A stretch of 58,472 nt of DNA from Lachnospiraceae bacterium (GTDB taxonomy: Bacteria; Bacillota; Clostridia; Lachnospirales; Lachnospiraceae), in contig JAGBEV010000054.1 in the NCBI GenBank assembly GCA_017936785.1, positions 1 through 58,472 of the forward strand. The letters are read 5' to 3'. The notes beneath the pieces are model-generated. The model was given only the letters and a program-made list of their open reading frames with translations. It was not told where the DNA came from and made no database searches. Every line of letters starts with the position of its first letter. Position 1 is the stretch's first letter. Positions 31,926 through 37,004 of the stretch are shown here, piece by piece. Both the position numbers and the translations under genes were made by a program.

Positions 31926-31942
31926 GTATGGAGGAGCTGCCG

Positions 31943-32263
31943 ATGGACCTGGTGGGAATGGGCAAAAGGATCAGACAAAAAAGATTGTCCAAGTCAATGA
32001 CGCAGGAAGAGCTTGCGGAACGGACTAATCTGACCGTTGCATATATTGGAATGATCGAACGAGGGGAGAGAACGCCCAGTATGGAAACCTTTGTTCAGAT
32101 AGCCAATGAATTAAATGCCACTGCAGATGAGCTTTTGTGTGAAAATCTTCGCAAGGGCTATCTCATACGTCTTGCAAAATATGAAGAGAAGCTCTCTCGT
32201 TTAAGCGAGCAGGAAACTAAAAAGATATATTCCGTAATGGACGCATTGCTGGGAATGTCTTAA
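31943..32263 (+). CDS. XRE-family helix-turn-helix regulator
   Basis: 106 residues. The HTH_3 domain spans residues ~5-60, with the classic MTQEELAERTNLTVAYIGMIERGERTP pattern (helix-turn-helix), then a short helical tail. It sits directly ahead of the agr-like two-component genes, on the same strand, with an 81-base gap. It could control that locus or its own promoter. ATG 31943 is chosen because GGAGGAG lies 6 bases ahead; ATG 31928 overlaps that site. Confidence 0.85.
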   Translation: MDLVGMGKRIRQKRLSKSMTQEELAERTNLTVAYIGMIERGERTPSMETFVQIANELNATADELLCENLRKGYLIRLAKYEEKLSRLSEQETKKIYSVMDALLGMS

Positions 32264-32344: not shown

Positions 32345-33070
32345 ATGAAAAAAGTTCTGATTCTTGAGGATAATCGAATTGTTGTGGAGACCTTGAAGGA
32401 AATTGTCAAGGATGTTGACCGGAGAGTGGAGATTATTGCGGTTAAGTCTATGGCAGAAGCCCGCAGACTTGCAACTGAAGAAGAATTCAATTTATTCATT
32501 GTAGATATCATCCTGAATCAGGAAAATCCCAATGACGCATCGGGGCTGGATTTCATCAGCTTCATCAGGGAAATTAAGAAATATGATTTTACTCCTATTA
32601 TTATAGCCACATCTATAGCCGATTCTAAATTGTACGCTTATGATACTTTAAATTGTTTTCGCTATATAGAAAAACCTTTTGATGTCGAACAGGTAAGATC
32701 GACAATCGAAAGGGCTTTTCAGGTACCCCAAAAAACCAGAGAGGATAAATACATACACCTGAGAGACGATAATACCATTCAGGCGCAGAAAGTCAGTGAA
32801 ATCGTATACATTTATTATAAAGAAAGAAAGCTGACCATCAGAAGTGTGGATGGGACTTCCTTTTTTTATTATAAATCTATCAGGGGGATCAAACGGCAGT
32901 TAGTAGATAACCGTTTTTTGCAATGTAACCGGAATACTTTGATAAATTGTAATTTTGTGTTGAAAATTGATATAAAAAATAATAAAGTCATATTAAAACA
33001 GGATTATGGCGAAGTAGCTTTGGGCAGCATTTATAAAAAGAAAATTATAGAGGAGTTTGCGTATGATTGA
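32345..33070 (+). CDS. AgrA-like LytTR response regulator
   Basis: 241 residues. Receiver domain (1 to ~125) with ILEDNR acidic pocket, phospho-acceptor Asp54 in FIVDIIL and the Lys in EKPFD. The LytTR DNA-binding domain covers ~140-240 (VSEIVYIYYKERKLTIRS, FLQCNRNTLINCNFV). It binds paired repeats with a CAGTT-type core in known relatives (AgrA, VirR). It overlaps the kinase gene by 8 bases. The likely targets are the mirrored operators at 35190-35328. Confidence 0.9.
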   Translation: MKKVLILEDNRIVVETLKEIVKDVDRRVEIIAVKSMAEARRLATEEEFNLFIVDIILNQENPNDASGLDFISFIREIKKYDFTPIIIATSIADSKLYAYDTLNCFRYIEKPFDVEQVRSTIERAFQVPQKTREDKYIHLRDDNTIQAQKVSEIVYIYYKERKLTIRSVDGTSFFYYKSIRGIKRQLVDNRFLQCNRNTLINCNFVLKIDIKNNKVILKQDYGEVALGSIYKKKIIEEFAYD

Positions 33071-34337
33071 GAAAGTGTATTTGTTATTTGAAGTTTTGGC
33101 AATGATGTTGGGGCTTTGGACGTTGCATGGGTCTAAAAAGAAACCGGGGATTGCGGCGATCATTTATGTATTTGCCCACATGATCATTATGGCATCTGTT
33201 GAACTTGAATGGCTGCCGGCTGTTTATTCAAATTTGCTTTATTTGGGATTGATCGTTCTGTGTATTTTTGAATTTGAGGACAGGGTATATGAATCATGTA
33301 TTTATGTCATAGTAAATACGGCTCTTGTTGGTGCAGTACAAATAGTATGCGGAATGTTTATTTGCCTTCTTTTTGAAAATTTGTATACAGGAGTGTTTAT
33401 TAACTTTTTAATAAATGCTGTTACTTGTGCTATTATGGCACTGATATTTTGGAAAGTGAAACTGCATAAATATGTAGAACTCATAATAAAAAGTAATATC
33501 ATTGGGAAACTGATACTATTGGGTGGTATAATTGCATGTGCATATATGATGTGGCTGACTAAAATAGAAATGAAGATCTATTGGAGAGATGCAGTTTTAA
33601 TTACCAGCATTGTGATTTTTGTTTTTGCAGTGGTCTTTCAATGGCAGAATGAGAGATGGAGCAATAAACAGAGAGAGGAAGAGTTAAAGGCATACGAGAA
33701 GTACAATCTGATTTATAAGGACCTGATCAGTGAGGTTAGAAGAAGGCAGCATGATTTTACGAATCATATTCAGGCGGTTTTCAGCATGAACATGTTTGCA
33801 ACAGATCTGGACAAGCTGATCAGGGAACAGAATGAGTATTGTTCCAAGATCATGCTTGAGAATACGACCAATAAGCTGCTGCGGGAGGACATACCTTCGG
33901 TTCTGGCAGGATTTTTATATACAAAGATTTCCCAGGCGGAAAAGGAAAATATTCAGGTAAAATATAGAATCAACATCAGCGATATTGAAAAGCGCATATC
34001 CTTTTCCGAACTGGTGGAAATACTCGGAAATCTCTTTGATAATGCCATAGAAGCCAACCGCATCATCGAAGAGAAGAATAAGAAGATCAATTTCTTTATC
34101 AATCAGGGGGAAGAAAGCCTGATGATTGAAATATCCAATCCATATTGCTGGGAAGGGAACAATAAGATGGATGACATGATTGAGGAAGGGAAAAGTACCA
34201 AAGGTAACGGAAGAGGACTTGGACTGGCAAATGTTACAGAAATCGTAGAAAAATATCATGGAATATTTGAAGTGAAAAATTTGGGAGATGGGGATGAAGA
34301 ATTTATTGTTTTCCGCATACATATATCTTTAATATAA
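33063..34337 (+). CDS. AgrC-like GHKL sensor histidine kinase
   Basis: 424 residues. Five or six membrane segments fill residues ~1-190. A coiled region and the dimerisation helix carry the phospho-acceptor His230 in RRQHDFTNHI, the AgrC-type HDxxNH motif. A GHKL ATPase follows with the N-box ILGNLFDNAIEA and the G-box GRGLGLANV. It likely senses the cyclic peptide made by the convergent agrBD genes and phosphorylates the LytTR regulator. ATG 33063 is preceded by AGGAG at 7 bases; an upstream TTG at 33057 is unlikely. Confidence 0.9.
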   Translation: MIEKVYLLFEVLAMMLGLWTLHGSKKKPGIAAIIYVFAHMIIMASVELEWLPAVYSNLLYLGLIVLCIFEFEDRVYESCIYVIVNTALVGAVQIVCGMFICLLFENLYTGVFINFLINAVTCAIMALIFWKVKLHKYVELIIKSNIIGKLILLGGIIACAYMMWLTKIEMKIYWRDAVLITSIVIFVFAVVFQWQNERWSNKQREEELKAYEKYNLIYKDLISEVRRRQHDFTNHIQAVFSMNMFATDLDKLIREQNEYCSKIMLENTTNKLLREDIPSVLAGFLYTKISQAEKENIQVKYRINISDIEKRISFSELVEILGNLFDNAIEANRIIEEKNKKINFFINQGEESLMIEISNPYCWEGNNKMDDMIEEGKSTKGNGRGLGLANVTEIVEKYHGIFEVKNLGDGDEEFIVFRIHISLI

Positions 34338-34395: not shown

Positions 34396-34417
34396 ACAAT
34401 CTGTTTTTACAGATTGT
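34396..34417. promoter_or_regulatory. Hairpin at the 3' end of agrD-like gene
   Basis: ACAATCTGT 34396-34404 and ACAGATTGT 34409-34417 form a 9-pair stem with a TTTT loop, touching the agrD stop codon. There is no T tract on the minus strand beyond it. It may protect the agrBD mRNA end. Confidence 0.45.
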
Positions 34418-34554
34418 CATACTTCGGGAAACTCAGGTTCGCCAAAACATAGAAAACAATACTGCCCATAAATTATAAAGATTCCATAGGCAAGACAGAA
34501 ATTGACGAACCCCTTTCCAACAGAATTAAGCATTTTGTGTAGATTTTTTTTCAT
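34417..34554 (-). CDS. agrD: AgrD-like autoinducing peptide precursor, 45 residues
   Basis: Too short for standard gene calling. The start ATG (complement of 34552-34554) follows AAAGGAGT at about 8 bases and overlaps the end of agrB by 29 bases; stop TGA is the complement of 34417-34419. The peptide has the AgrD plan: a basic amphipathic N-terminal helix (MKKNLHKMLNSVGKG), a hydrophobic middle, Cys33, and the acidic C-terminal tail GEPEFPEV that resembles the conserved E-P tail of AgrD. Five residues from Cys33 to Phe37 (C-F-L-C-F) fit the standard five-membered thiolactone ring. Gene order next to agrB supports it. The exact mature peptide is inference. Confidence 0.85.
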   Translation of the reverse strand: MKKNLHKMLNSVGKGFVNFCLAYGIFIIYGQYCFLCFGEPEFPEV

Positions 34555-35122
34555 AATGAAAACTCCTTTCTTTGGTATATTGTAAGCTTTTAGCAATAGC
34601 TAACTGAATGGAATGGAAAATGATGATCCAAAATCCTGTGGTCAATAGATAATTCACAGGAAAAAGATATAAAATAACGGCATATATAAAAACGATCATA
34701 AATACATTTACCTGAATGCGTGCAAAAAGACCCTTGTCCTCGATCCGGCATTTGGGGTTTCTGACAGGTCCGATATAGTAATTGACCAGCATACAGATCA
34801 TCAGGGCAACAAGCATTACCGGTTTGGAAATCTCCAGCAGTCCCGGCATGAAATAAATGGAAGAAACCAATACACCCAAGGAAAATAAAAAGCAGGTAGT
34901 ATAGTGCTTTAAATGCAGTCCGCCCTGATTCCCCCGGAGTAAGAGCAATAATGCCATATCCCACAGAAATGCCGCAGTCTTTCCCATATAGAGGAAAAAG
35001 AAGAAAAAAATCATGATTTTCGAAATGTCATAAAACAAACCTTTCAGTGAGAACTTCAAATAGGCTCTGTCACGGTCTGACAAAGAGTAGCTTGTCTGAA
35101 GTTTATCTAAGATCATTTCCAT
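34526..35122 (-). CDS. agrB: AgrB-like peptide-processing membrane protease
   Basis: 198 residues, four to six membrane segments. The AgrB cysteine-protease signature is present: His70 and Cys77 in GGLHLKHYTTC, with the same seven-residue spacing as in staphylococcal AgrB, preceded by RGNQGG. AgrB cuts the AgrD precursor and closes the thiolactone ring. ATG 35122 is preferred because the longer TTG start at 35143 lies upstream of the AAAGGAG ribosome site. The gene overlaps the agrD-like gene by 29 bases, so the two are translated together. Confidence 0.93.
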   Translation of the reverse strand: MEMILDKLQTSYSLSDRDRAYLKFSLKGLFYDISKIMIFFFFFLYMGKTAAFLWDMALLLLLRGNQGGLHLKHYTTCFLFSLGVLVSSIYFMPGLLEISKPVMLVALMICMLVNYYIGPVRNPKCRIEDKGLFARIQVNVFMIVFIYAVILYLFPVNYLLTTGFWIIIFHSIQLAIAKSLQYTKERSFHYEKKSTQNA

Positions 35123-35160
35123 GGCTGTCCAATCTCCTTTCAATAATTCAAATCAATGGA

Positions 35161-35228
35161 ATTATATAGCAGAAAAAATGCAACTATTTATTTTTTTACA
35201 CTAACTGGTTGTTTGGGGTCATAAATTG
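35161..35228 (-). promoter_or_regulatory. LytTR-type operator and promoter of agrBD
   Basis: On the minus strand, CCCCAAACAACCAGTTAGTG then a run of seven A (complement of ~35190-35218) is followed, 41 bases from CAGTT to box, by TATAAT (complement of 35161-35166). No good -35 is present, as expected for an activator-dependent promoter. A second weaker half, CAATTTATG (complement of 35220-35228), lies 21 bases upstream of the CAGTT half. Confidence 0.6.
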
Positions 35229-35290
35229 TTTTTTTTCTTTTTTTAAGAAAAAATCATAACGAAAAAATAGTAATAAAAGGGCGGTTTTTT

Positions 35291-35357
35291 AAACTTGTGC
35301 CCCCAAACAGGCAGTTTAAGTAAAAAAAGTAAGGATTTTGGAATTTTTATTTATAAT
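35291..35357 (+). promoter_or_regulatory. Mirror-image LytTR-type operator and promoter toward DUF4392 gene
   Basis: CCCCAAACAGGCAGTTTAAG (35301-35320) then TAAAAAAA repeats the agrBD operator in the other direction. TATAAT at 35352-35357 is 40 bases from CAGTT at 35312. The upstream half AAACTTGTG (35291-35299) is again 21 bases before the CAGTTTAAG half. This predicts that the LytTR regulator also drives rightward transcription. Confidence 0.6.
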
Positions 35358-35361
35358 AAAA

Positions 35362-35445
35362 AAGTTATGCTCTTAAAAAAACAGCCCTTAAGACCATAGC
35401 CGGGGTGGTATCACGGGCGTTTGTGTGAGAAAATGGAAATAACTT
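35362..35445 (+). ncRNA. Candidate structured leader RNA ahead of DUF4392 gene
   Basis: Closing stem AAGTTAT 35362-35368 with ATAACTT 35439-35445 encloses nested pairings: GCCC with GGGC, and GACCA with TGGTATC around the sequence TAGCCGGGG. An alternative TCTTAA/TTAAGA stem competes. There is no T-tract terminator. It begins right after the rightward TATAAT box. It is not recognised as a known riboswitch. Confidence 0.35.
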
Positions 35446-35490
35446 CATATAATAGTTTCAGCAAATAAAGAAAAAGGGGAAGTGGCGGAT

Positions 35491-36552
35491 TTGACACGAC
35501 AGGAATTAACAGAATGGAATGTAGGAGAAAATTTGGATCAGATCATGAATCTGGACCCCAGGGGATATGGGGTATGCCGTATTCTCTATGAAGGCAGCAG
35601 GGAATATACAGGAAAGCCGCTGACCATAAACGGAGGAGAGCGTCTGATAGAAAAGGTGAAGGCAAAGGATCTGGTCTATATCATGACCGGATTTGTTCTC
35701 TCCCCCTTTATGAAGGCGGAGACGGATGGTGCGATCGGTGCGGTTTTATTAGCGAGAGCACTGGTCCATACCATGGGTGCAAAGCCTGTGATCATATGTC
35801 CTGAGGAGGCAGTAAAAGCAATTGCTGCCTGTGTACGGACGGCAGGGTTGAAAGCTTTTGAAAATGTGGATGAGGTCATGGAAACAGATTCTTCTATAGG
35901 AATTCTTTCTTTTACAAAAGATCAAAAAGAGGCGCAAAGAGATGCCGGGGATATGCTTGACCGTTATAAGCTGCCTTCAGCAGTCATAGCTATTGAGGCT
36001 CCCGGAGCAAATGAAAAGGGAGAATACCACAATGCCATAGGTCTTAATGTGACGGCATTGGAGGCGAAGCCGGATGTATTATTCCGTATGCTGTGCCAAA
36101 GAGGTGTTATGAGTCTGGCGATCGGGGATCTGGGCAATGAAATTGGCATGGGAACCATCGGAGCCCATATCAGAAAAAAGATTCCCTATACGGACAGGGA
36201 AGAATGCCGGTGCGGCTGTCAGGGAGGGATTCTGGCAGATACCAAAGCAGAGCATATCATTACTGCTGCTACATCGGACTGGGGATGTTACGGTTTGATA
36301 GGAGCTTTGGCATATCTGAAAAAAAATATGGATATTATGCAGACACCGGAGCTGGAGGCAAGAATCATAGAAACGGCATGTGAAAGGGATCTGATCGATA
36401 TGAATGGTCCCGGTTTTCAGGGAATTGACGGTTTCGGTGTGGAAATGAATGTAAATGTTGTCAGATTAATGCGGTCCTGTGTGGAATATGCTATGGAATA
36501 TGAGAAAACGGGAGAGCATTGGTTTGATGGAGTGATAAAGAAAAATTATTGA
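35491..36552 (+). CDS. DUF4392 protein, related to D-glutamate cyclase
   Basis: About 353 residues. It matches the DUF4392 family: a GGERLIEKV helix near residue 40, FVLSPFMKAETDGAIGAVLLARAL, AIEAPGANEKGEYHNAIG, and the Cys-rich CRCGCQGG near the middle. The eukaryotic relative converts D-glutamate to 5-oxo-D-proline; activity here is inferred from family only. The start is uncertain: GTG 35482 has AGGGGA only 1 base ahead, while TTG 35491 has it at 10 bases and is used here. Its upstream region carries the mirrored agr-type operator, so it may belong to the quorum-sensing regulon. Confidence 0.75.
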   Translation: MTRQELTEWNVGENLDQIMNLDPRGYGVCRILYEGSREYTGKPLTINGGERLIEKVKAKDLVYIMTGFVLSPFMKAETDGAIGAVLLARALVHTMGAKPVIICPEEAVKAIAACVRTAGLKAFENVDEVMETDSSIGILSFTKDQKEAQRDAGDMLDRYKLPSAVIAIEAPGANEKGEYHNAIGLNVTALEAKPDVLFRMLCQRGVMSLAIGDLGNEIGMGTIGAHIRKKIPYTDREECRCGCQGGILADTKAEHIITAATSDWGCYGLIGALAYLKKNMDIMQTPELEARIIETACERDLIDMNGPGFQGIDGFGVEMNVNVVRLMRSCVEYAMEYEKTGEHWFDGVIKKNY

Positions 36553-36615
36553 CTTATAAGAAGATTCATGCTATATTAACTGTACTACATAAAGCAATAC
36601 AGATAATACAGTTAA
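36549..36615 (+). promoter_or_regulatory. Promoter and operator of the GntR-ABC operon
   Basis: TTGACT 36549-36554, 17-base spacer, TATATT 36572-36577. A perfect inverted repeat TTAACTGTA (36576-36584) and TACAGTTAA (36607-36615), with a 22-base spacer, begins in the -10 box and covers the transcription start. This is the expected place for repression by the encoded GntR protein. The -35 box overlaps the stop of the previous gene. Confidence 0.75.
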
Positions 36616-36632
36616 AAAGAAAGGAGGACAGT

Positions 36633-37004
36633 ATGATTCAAATCGATTATCGAAGTGAACAACCAATCTATGAGCAGATCATAGAACAGATCAAGCTATA
36701 TGTTATAAAAGGACAACTGTCAGGAGGAGATGCCATACCTTCTGTCAGAAAGATGGCGCAGTCTCTTGGAGTAACACCGTCAACAGTGGCAAAGGCATAT
36801 CAGGAGCTGGAGCGCCAGAAGGTTATTGAGACCATCCGTGCCAAGGGAACTTTTATTGCACAGAACATAGATGTTTCTATGGGAGAAGAACAGATGGAAA
36901 GAATACGCCAGAGAATGAAAAGTGAAATATTGGAATTAAAAAGAAATGGCTATTCAGCGGAAGATGTGGTGAATTTGGCAAAGGAGATATATGAGTCGAT
37001 ATAG
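36633..37004 (+). CDS. GntR-family (YtrA-type) regulator
   Basis: 123 residues, short YtrA class: an N-terminal winged HTH (PIYEQIIEQIK, SGGDAIPSVRKMAQSLGVTPSTVAKAYQELE) and only a short helical tail, without the ligand domain of larger GntR proteins. Such regulators normally repress the ABC transporter genes that follow them, often with induction by cell-wall-active peptides. AAAGGAGG precedes ATG 36633; the longer frame from 36549 includes the promoter and is rejected. Confidence 0.92.
   Translation: MIQIDYRSEQPIYEQIIEQIKLYVIKGQLSGGDAIPSVRKMAQSLGVTPSTVAKAYQELERQKVIETIRAKGTFIAQNIDVSMGEEQMERIRQRMKSEILELKRNGYSAEDVVNLAKEIYESI

Follow-up and report, generated by a model that had tools for sequence, protein, structure and literature searches.

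The region between agrB and a DUF4392 gene in the 58,472-nucleotide stretch of Lachnospiraceae DNA analysed here (the window; contig C35 of an assembly of 3,413,772 bases in 66 contigs with a contamination value of 8.77%) carries two outward-facing putative LytTR operators, which, with a probability of roughly 0.7, mediate agrBD autoinduction on one side and serve a promoter towards DUF4392 on the other, with the two rotationally phased arms being filled cooperatively. In our reading, the predicted pair forms a rotationally aligned activator element that works cooperatively, not a plain copy of the staphylococcal P2/P3 promoters. The recurring unit, which was absent from the original prediction for this DNA, seems to be the rotationally phased pair, and as a form of LytTR or agr promoter the phased mirror pair is possibly new.

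On the basis of the observed sequence, geometry, recurrence and, in strong pairs, phase, we infer binding and activation by a peptide-responsive regulator as well as cooperativity. The AgrD peptide would act through the GHKL kinase on the LytTR regulator, and a dimer of the phosphorylated regulator would occupy the two 9-bp half-sites of each operator, where it would substitute for the missing -35 contact of a TATAAT box 41-42 bp downstream. One arm would autoinduce agrBD, and the other would start transcription towards DUF4392. Since the rotational relation between the arms appears to be fixed, the two dimers are likely to touch or jointly bend the DNA and would fill cooperatively, which would result in a sharper switch.

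The window encodes, in this order, an XRE regulator (31928-32260, +) adjoining the agr locus, an AgrA-like LytTR response regulator (32345..33070, +; PF00072 and PF04397, 32345-33067), which is the presumed activator, an AgrC-like GHKL histidine kinase (33063..34337, +; PF14501), which is the presumed peptide receptor, agrB and an agrD-like gene on the minus strand, and, on the plus strand, the DUF4392 gene followed by genes for a GntR regulator and an ABC transporter ATPase. The agrB gene (34526..35122, -; PF04647, E 5e-21) probably starts with the ATG at 35122, with the open reading frame reaching a TTG at 35143, and its product contains His70 and Cys77, which are invariant across 21 aligned AgrB proteins and which we take to be the catalytic residues. 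According to domain matches, the parts of an agr system encoded in the window are this AgrB with its His and Cys, the AgrC-like kinase and the LytTR regulator. The agrD-like open reading frame of 45 amino acids (34417..34554, -), which overlaps the end of agrB, has an AgrD-like shape with the C-terminus CFLCF-GEPEFPEV and no Pfam match at E 0.001; its GEPEFP tail also adjoins agrB in the related genomes G001 and G007. The far-side gene (35482..36552, +) encodes a DUF4392 or D-glutamate-cyclase-like C-terminal domain protein, in which PF14336 (GLUCM-like_C, E 5e-81) spans residues 18-331 and for which D-glutamate cyclase activity is predicted. Pfam thus confirmed the earlier assignment of this gene as well as those of AgrB, the LytTR regulator and the GHKL kinase. 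The only two relatives of the window AgrB returned by the named genome collection stem from Lachnospiraceae metagenome-assembled genomes and are 42-43% identical. Further to the right, positions 36549-36640 hold a promoter-like TTGACT-17-TATATT of the GntR regulator and ABC transporter genes, near which an AACTGT/ACAGTT inverted repeat was noticed by eye.

The motif CCCCAAACANNCAGTT indeed occurs in two exact copies of opposite orientation, as had been claimed, at 35203-35218 (-) and 35301-35316 (+). The predicted agrB-side operator (35200..35229, -) consists of the distal 9-mer ACAATTTAT (35221-35229) and the proximal 9-mer CCAGTTAGT (35200-35208), separated by a 12-bp spacer containing CCCCAAACA, and the predicted mirror operator (35290..35319, +) consists of the distal TAAACTTGT (35290-35298) and the proximal GCAGTTTAA (35311-35319). 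The stretch between the proximal 9-mers covers 35209..35310, the first bases of these 9-mers being 103 bp apart. A TATAAT box follows each operator; counted from the first base of the proximal 9-mer, it lies at 42 bp in the agrBD promoter (35161..35166, -) and at 41 bp in the rightward promoter (35352..35357, +). Because the -35 positions, assuming a 17-bp spacer, read AAATAG at the agrBD promoter and GTAAGG at the rightward promoter, both lack a good -35 element, and the distance from CAGTT to TATAAT, given as 40 or 41 bases by the original prediction, was measured as 41 and 40 bases. The 21-base pitch of the half-sites was likewise found, but their register was not, since the AgrA consensus fits one base earlier; in the former register both sites score lower (14/22 each) than with ACAATTTAT/CCAGTTAGT and TAAACTTGT/GCAGTTTAA.

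The window arms are inverted copies of each other, with 50 of 69 aligned columns identical and a score of 54 compared to 26.0 ± 4.0 in dinucleotide shuffles, a score that was equalled in none of 1000 such shuffles. The spacer CCCCAAACA is identical in both arms (35210-35218 and 35301-35309), and a similar CCCCAAAAACA is present in the agrB arms of G001 and G007; excerpts of the literature on LytTR repeats describe no conserved spacer. At up to three mismatches, CCCCAAACANNCAGTT has 14 matches in the window compared to a shuffled mean of 5.27 (sd 2.24, largest 12). A genome-wide motif search recovered the two window sites but no further genomic targets: in the whole assembly (3,413,772 bases), CCCCAAACANNCAGTT at up to one mismatch yielded only the two window copies, and the longer pattern TTNNGNCCCCAAACANNCAGTTNNNGTAAAA at up to three mismatches yielded the same two sites and no others. 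Exact matches in other genomes were set aside, as the motif occurred in three of 299 genomes including its own and the other two matches, lying inside coding sequence, were taken as chance.

The half-site consensus of AgrA is [TA][AC][CA]GTTN[AG][TG], and CAGTT is the core of known LytTR sites, the VirR box included. We scanned every window position on both strands (116,802) for this consensus, placed twice at 21-bp pitch and followed by a TATAAT 41 or 42 bp further on, the latter offset being derived from the window sites themselves. The agrB site turned out to be the single best position and the only one with 20/22; the mirror site came next with 18/22, a score reached by five positions in all. 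The repeats are imperfect and match 7+7 (agrB side) and 6+6 (mirror) of the 8+8 consensus positions. Both sites resemble AgrA/VirR-type operators in having two 9-bp direct repeats at 21-bp pitch, with a LytTR regulator encoded alongside, and in being placed 41-42 bp from a TATAAT with a weak or absent -35.

In the excerpts of the papers cited here, LytTR operators are defined as two 9-bp direct repeats with a spacer of about 12 bp (PMC6193735, PMC4064291), the repeats lie mostly 12 bp apart and most often 10 bp upstream of the -35 element (PMC6193735), and the RgaR repeats are located at G-51 and G-72 (PMC10602386). The 41-42 bp offset agrees with this site geometry as given there (PMC6193735, PMC10602386). 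The AgrA consensus is a guide only, because LytTR sites share no common consensus sequence according to the excerpt of PMC4847170. The proposed LytTR-type operators were upheld by their first and joint second rank in the window scan and by the recurrence of the geometry upstream of agrB in some relatives, and we regard the window sites as very probably being such operators. As each of them would serve a TATAAT without a -35, agrBD is probably autoinduced by the adjoining LytTR regulator, so that the predicted positive-feedback promoter is well supported in this form.

The genus was sampled with nine genomes including the own one, six of which had an AgrB match. In G001 and G007, operators face both ways in the same intergenic position, and in each of the four the half-site begins 42 bp from the -10; across the three congeneric genomes, the proximal 9-mer starts 42 bp from the -10 in five of six operators and 41 bp in the sixth. 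According to the automated pair search, the phased pair is absent in G006 and G008 and only weak in G002 of the same genus. Beyond the genus, an AgrB search in 397 family genomes led to 18 genomes with one sequence and to 65 with a profile, and a search in 83 relatives of G283 led to nine genomes. The automated search for outward-facing operator pairs, which included an arm-similarity term, was applied to 94 regions (29 close, 65 distant) with 40 shuffles each. L139, L146, L180, L184, L199 and L206 (short or truncated by the edge of a contig) and L152 (the same gene as L104, which was kept among the 29 close regions) were excluded, three profile rows with internal stop codons were left out, and the distant regions were bounded by the profile match and not by a verified start codon.

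Twelve regions exceeded z 4.5, namely G283, G000, G405, G404, G001, G039, G007, G119, G426, C6, G195 and G403; among the 65 distant regions, this applied to one (G119), and six exceeded z 2. A stricter rule-based pair search in all fetched DNA (938,376 bases from 216 partly overlapping sources, mostly agr neighbourhoods) resulted in 23 rows representing eight distinct pairs, all eight of which lie upstream of agrB. In a plain inverted-repeat test of 23 regions (22 agrB regions and C6), no more than 1% of shuffles equalled or exceeded the score of seven, with 0/1000 each for the window, G283, G039 and C6, 5/1000 for G007, 7/1000 for G183 and 2/200 for G271. The arms of G001 are not significant as an inverted repeat (52/200 shuffles, z 0.7), and G183 and G271 are significant inverted repeats, yet no operator stands out in their consensus scans. 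Mirror pairs at all agrB loci can be dismissed, the best inverted repeat reaching z 4.4 among 71 more distant agrB regions, one of which (L146, placed downstream of agrB) is void.

On contig C6 of the same genome, a mirror operator pair with the phase seen in the window (L051 7403-7464 and 7483-7544) is located between an orphan LytTR regulator, 45% identical to that of the window, and a WXG100/YukC/FtsK T7SS operon.

The distance between the arms, measured from first base to first base of the proximal 9-mers, is 103 bp in the window, 92 bp in G001 and G007, 93 bp in C6, 72 bp in G283 and G404, 73 bp in G405, 71 bp in G403, 61 bp in G039, 61 bp in G412 (hand-set register) and 52 bp in G426, and all of these distances fall within 8.0 to 10.0 modulo 10.5. 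The pairs in this list were compiled by hand, mostly from scan output, and for G412 and the left arm of C6 the register was likewise chosen by hand or by alignment. In the automated pair search, all twelve regions above z 4.5 have a distance modulo 10.5 between 8.0 and 10.0, compared to 24.6% of 4,350 best pairs obtained after shuffling the 29 close regions; the shuffle best pairs are evenly spread, which does not support a scoring artefact as the origin of the phase. A simulation with the seven hand-listed lineages, two of them with hand-set registers, gave a p of 1.8e-4 at period 10.5, which is largely post hoc, and of 3.6e-4 when the period could take its best value from 10 to 11. The phase idea goes back to the distances of the first five lineages, for which p was 6.5e-4, or 0.028 when the C6 register shifts by one base, and was then retained with seven. 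The lineages above z 4.5 found after the idea had been formed, G426 (52 bp), G195 (72 bp) and G119 (41 bp), are all in phase. For C6, the automated run gave the same distance as the hand list, and without the arm-similarity term the chosen distance was 101 bp (6.5 modulo 10.5). The automated pair of G412 (53 bp, z 3.9) is out of phase, and this region fits at 61 bp only with the hand-set register. Since only four of the next ten regions (z 2.5 to 4.5, including G412) lie in the phase window, which is near chance, the phase signal is confined to strong pairs, for which a common helical phase appears likely but not established.

The staphylococcal P2/P3 layout, to which the original prediction likened the region, would in its plain form mean two independent LytTR-activated divergent promoters, for agrBD and for a quorum-controlled effector (DUF4392 in the window, the giant proteins of G001 and G007), whose arms do not touch and whose phase reflects chance or shared ancestry. 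We consider this rather unlikely, although it accounts for the TATAAT at the right distance on both window arms and for the far arms of G001 and G007, which precede giant FN3-domain open reading frames: one of more than 2866 amino acids with FN3 and PKD domains in G001 (L014 1401-10001) and one of 2068 amino acids with FN3 domains in G007 (L015 172-6378), both with a signal-like N terminus by eye and both candidates for quorum-controlled surface proteins. In S. aureus, P2 and P3 likewise diverge and have AgrA sites of their own, and direct repeats precede each of the two suboptimal promoters (PMC4227749, excerpt); the window shares with them the divergent promoters in the agr intergenic region and the direct repeats upstream. 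However, in G405, G403 and C6 the far arm faces nothing but the 3' end of a same-direction LytTR regulator gene, and one phase is common to the twelve strongest pairs, with no phase preference in shuffles. The far-side gene is not conserved either, being DUF4392 in the window, a second LytTR response regulator in G283, a 137-amino-acid protein without Pfam match in G404 and a methyltransferase gene followed by a radical-SAM gene in G412; for G039 and G426 no far-side gene was identified. The pair persists even where a far-side gene is lacking, which points to the second operator serving the first.

Further differences from S. aureus are that kinase and regulator of the window form a separate, convergent operon, that the far-side gene is DUF4392, that no RNAIII-like RNA was found in the window, and that the arms are mirror copies with a phase as in the strong pairs of other genera, the phase being compared among these pairs only. 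Regarding the RNA, no Rfam family reached its gathering score in the window, which leaves room for an undescribed RNA; around the pair, two sub-threshold matches (E 0.26 and 3.7) were obtained. The right-hand leader folds no better than shuffles (z 0.41), and an RNAIII-like or riboswitch leader on the right was rejected on these grounds; a T-box reading of GGGGTGGTATCACGGGC near 35402 found no support in the Rfam search around the pair. Of the P2/P3 analogy, which is only partly supported, the rightward promoter stands as a sequence, but no RNAIII-like RNA was seen and the far-side gene varies between genomes that retain the pair.

Alternatively, the right-hand operator could be mainly architectural and help the agrB operator, with DUF4392 being transcribed from its own promoter outside quorum control, which we regard as improbable. 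A second promoter candidate, GTGAGA-17-TATAAT (35425..35453, +; 10/12 in the consensus scan), is nearer to the DUF4392 start codon than the predicted quorum-controlled promoter, and DUF4392 may be driven independently from there; promoter-like sites in that region number 8 compared to 6.7 ± 2.2 in shuffles, no excess over chance. The lack of a good -10 in the outer arm of C6 would also suit an architectural role, as would the DUF4392 relatives described below. Against it, the right arm of the window has a perfect TATAAT at 41 bp, which would be superfluous for architecture alone, and among the eleven listed pairs an outer -10 at 41 or 42 bp matches at least 4/6 positions in ten and at least 5/6 in nine.

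At a cut-off of E 1e-25, 11 of 394 family genomes, the own one included, encode DUF4392. For eight homologues from other genera (48-55% identity), flanks of at most 1.5 kb were fetched and contained no agr gene, which does not support a conserved partnership between DUF4392 and agr; in G328, the homologue and an AgrB match share a contig at a distance of 9.9 kb. A carboxyltransferase gene (PF02682) follows the homologue in seven of the eight cases, the eighth (L106) stopping at the contig edge, and a class IV aminotransferase gene (PF01063) precedes it in six of the eight. Most of these relatives (L105, L107-L112) are found inside apparent amino-acid operons of the aminotransferase/carboxyltransferase type, and these neighbours suggest a role of the homologues in D-glutamate breakdown through 5-oxoproline. 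The window copy stands alone outside such an operon, and a search of the own assembly, run without a positive control, found no PF02682-type carboxyltransferase.

Binding of another protein, such as the XRE regulator, or of the LytTR regulator as a repressor is very improbable: an XRE gene lies beside the window locus and, by eye, beside the C6 regulator, and the CCCCAAACA spacer kept in both arms is unexplained by LytTR half-sites alone, but the half-site pitch, the -10 distance and the missing -35 fit LytTR activators in particular.

Extending the cooperative reading of the window pair, we tentatively propose, at somewhat below even odds, that mirror-image helix-phased LytTR pairs constitute a separate type of promoter architecture, found in Lachnospirales agr systems and at a T7SS promoter, in which two dimers touching across 4 to 10 helical turns would form a cooperative switch and the outer arm would be free for any gene or for antisense negative feedback on the regulator gene, as in G405 and G403. 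In these two genomes (L211, L212), the outer promoter has a perfect TATAAT and runs antisense into the 3' end of the adjoining LytTR regulator gene, which would make negative feedback possible.

With the C. difficile RgaR and C. perfringens VirR sites, the window operators share the 21-bp pitch (RgaR G-51/G-72). Unlike these single operators, for which the excerpt of PMC10602386 reports agr loops that are not closed, the presumed regulator sites are here located at agrB itself. The LytTR regulatory systems HdrRM and BrsRM likewise have 9-bp repeats, mostly separated by 12 bp and often located some 10 bp from the -35, and show positive feedback, but they differ from the window in having one repeat pair per operon and a membrane inhibitor instead of peptide and kinase (PMC6193735, excerpt). 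Among the matches listed in our literature searches, titles and abstract openings contained no description of LytTR operators in a helix-phased or mirror arrangement, nor of such a pair in the control of T7SS or of agrBD in Lachnospiraceae. A closed autoinduction loop is predicted in a Lachnospiraceae agr system, contrary to the suggestion, made from C. difficile and C. perfringens in the excerpt of PMC10602386, that Agr systems of clostridia generally lack autoregulation. The phased pair lends itself to asking if LytTR dimers on the two sides of a divergent promoter cooperate, and it represents a sequence signature for spotting quorum-controlled genes in uncultured relatives.

Two minor observations concern the agr loci of relatives. 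The locus of G002 (L016) lies near an FtsK/SpoIIIE-domain gene and that of G008 (L018) near a YwqH-like gene with a Pfam score under its cut-off, and these neighbours hint at a link between agr and T7SS. In G039 (L093), agrB is followed by an AgrD-like open reading frame of 47 amino acids with a Ser at the expected ring Cys (SSLILF-GEPEYP), and the signal is therefore possibly a lactone.
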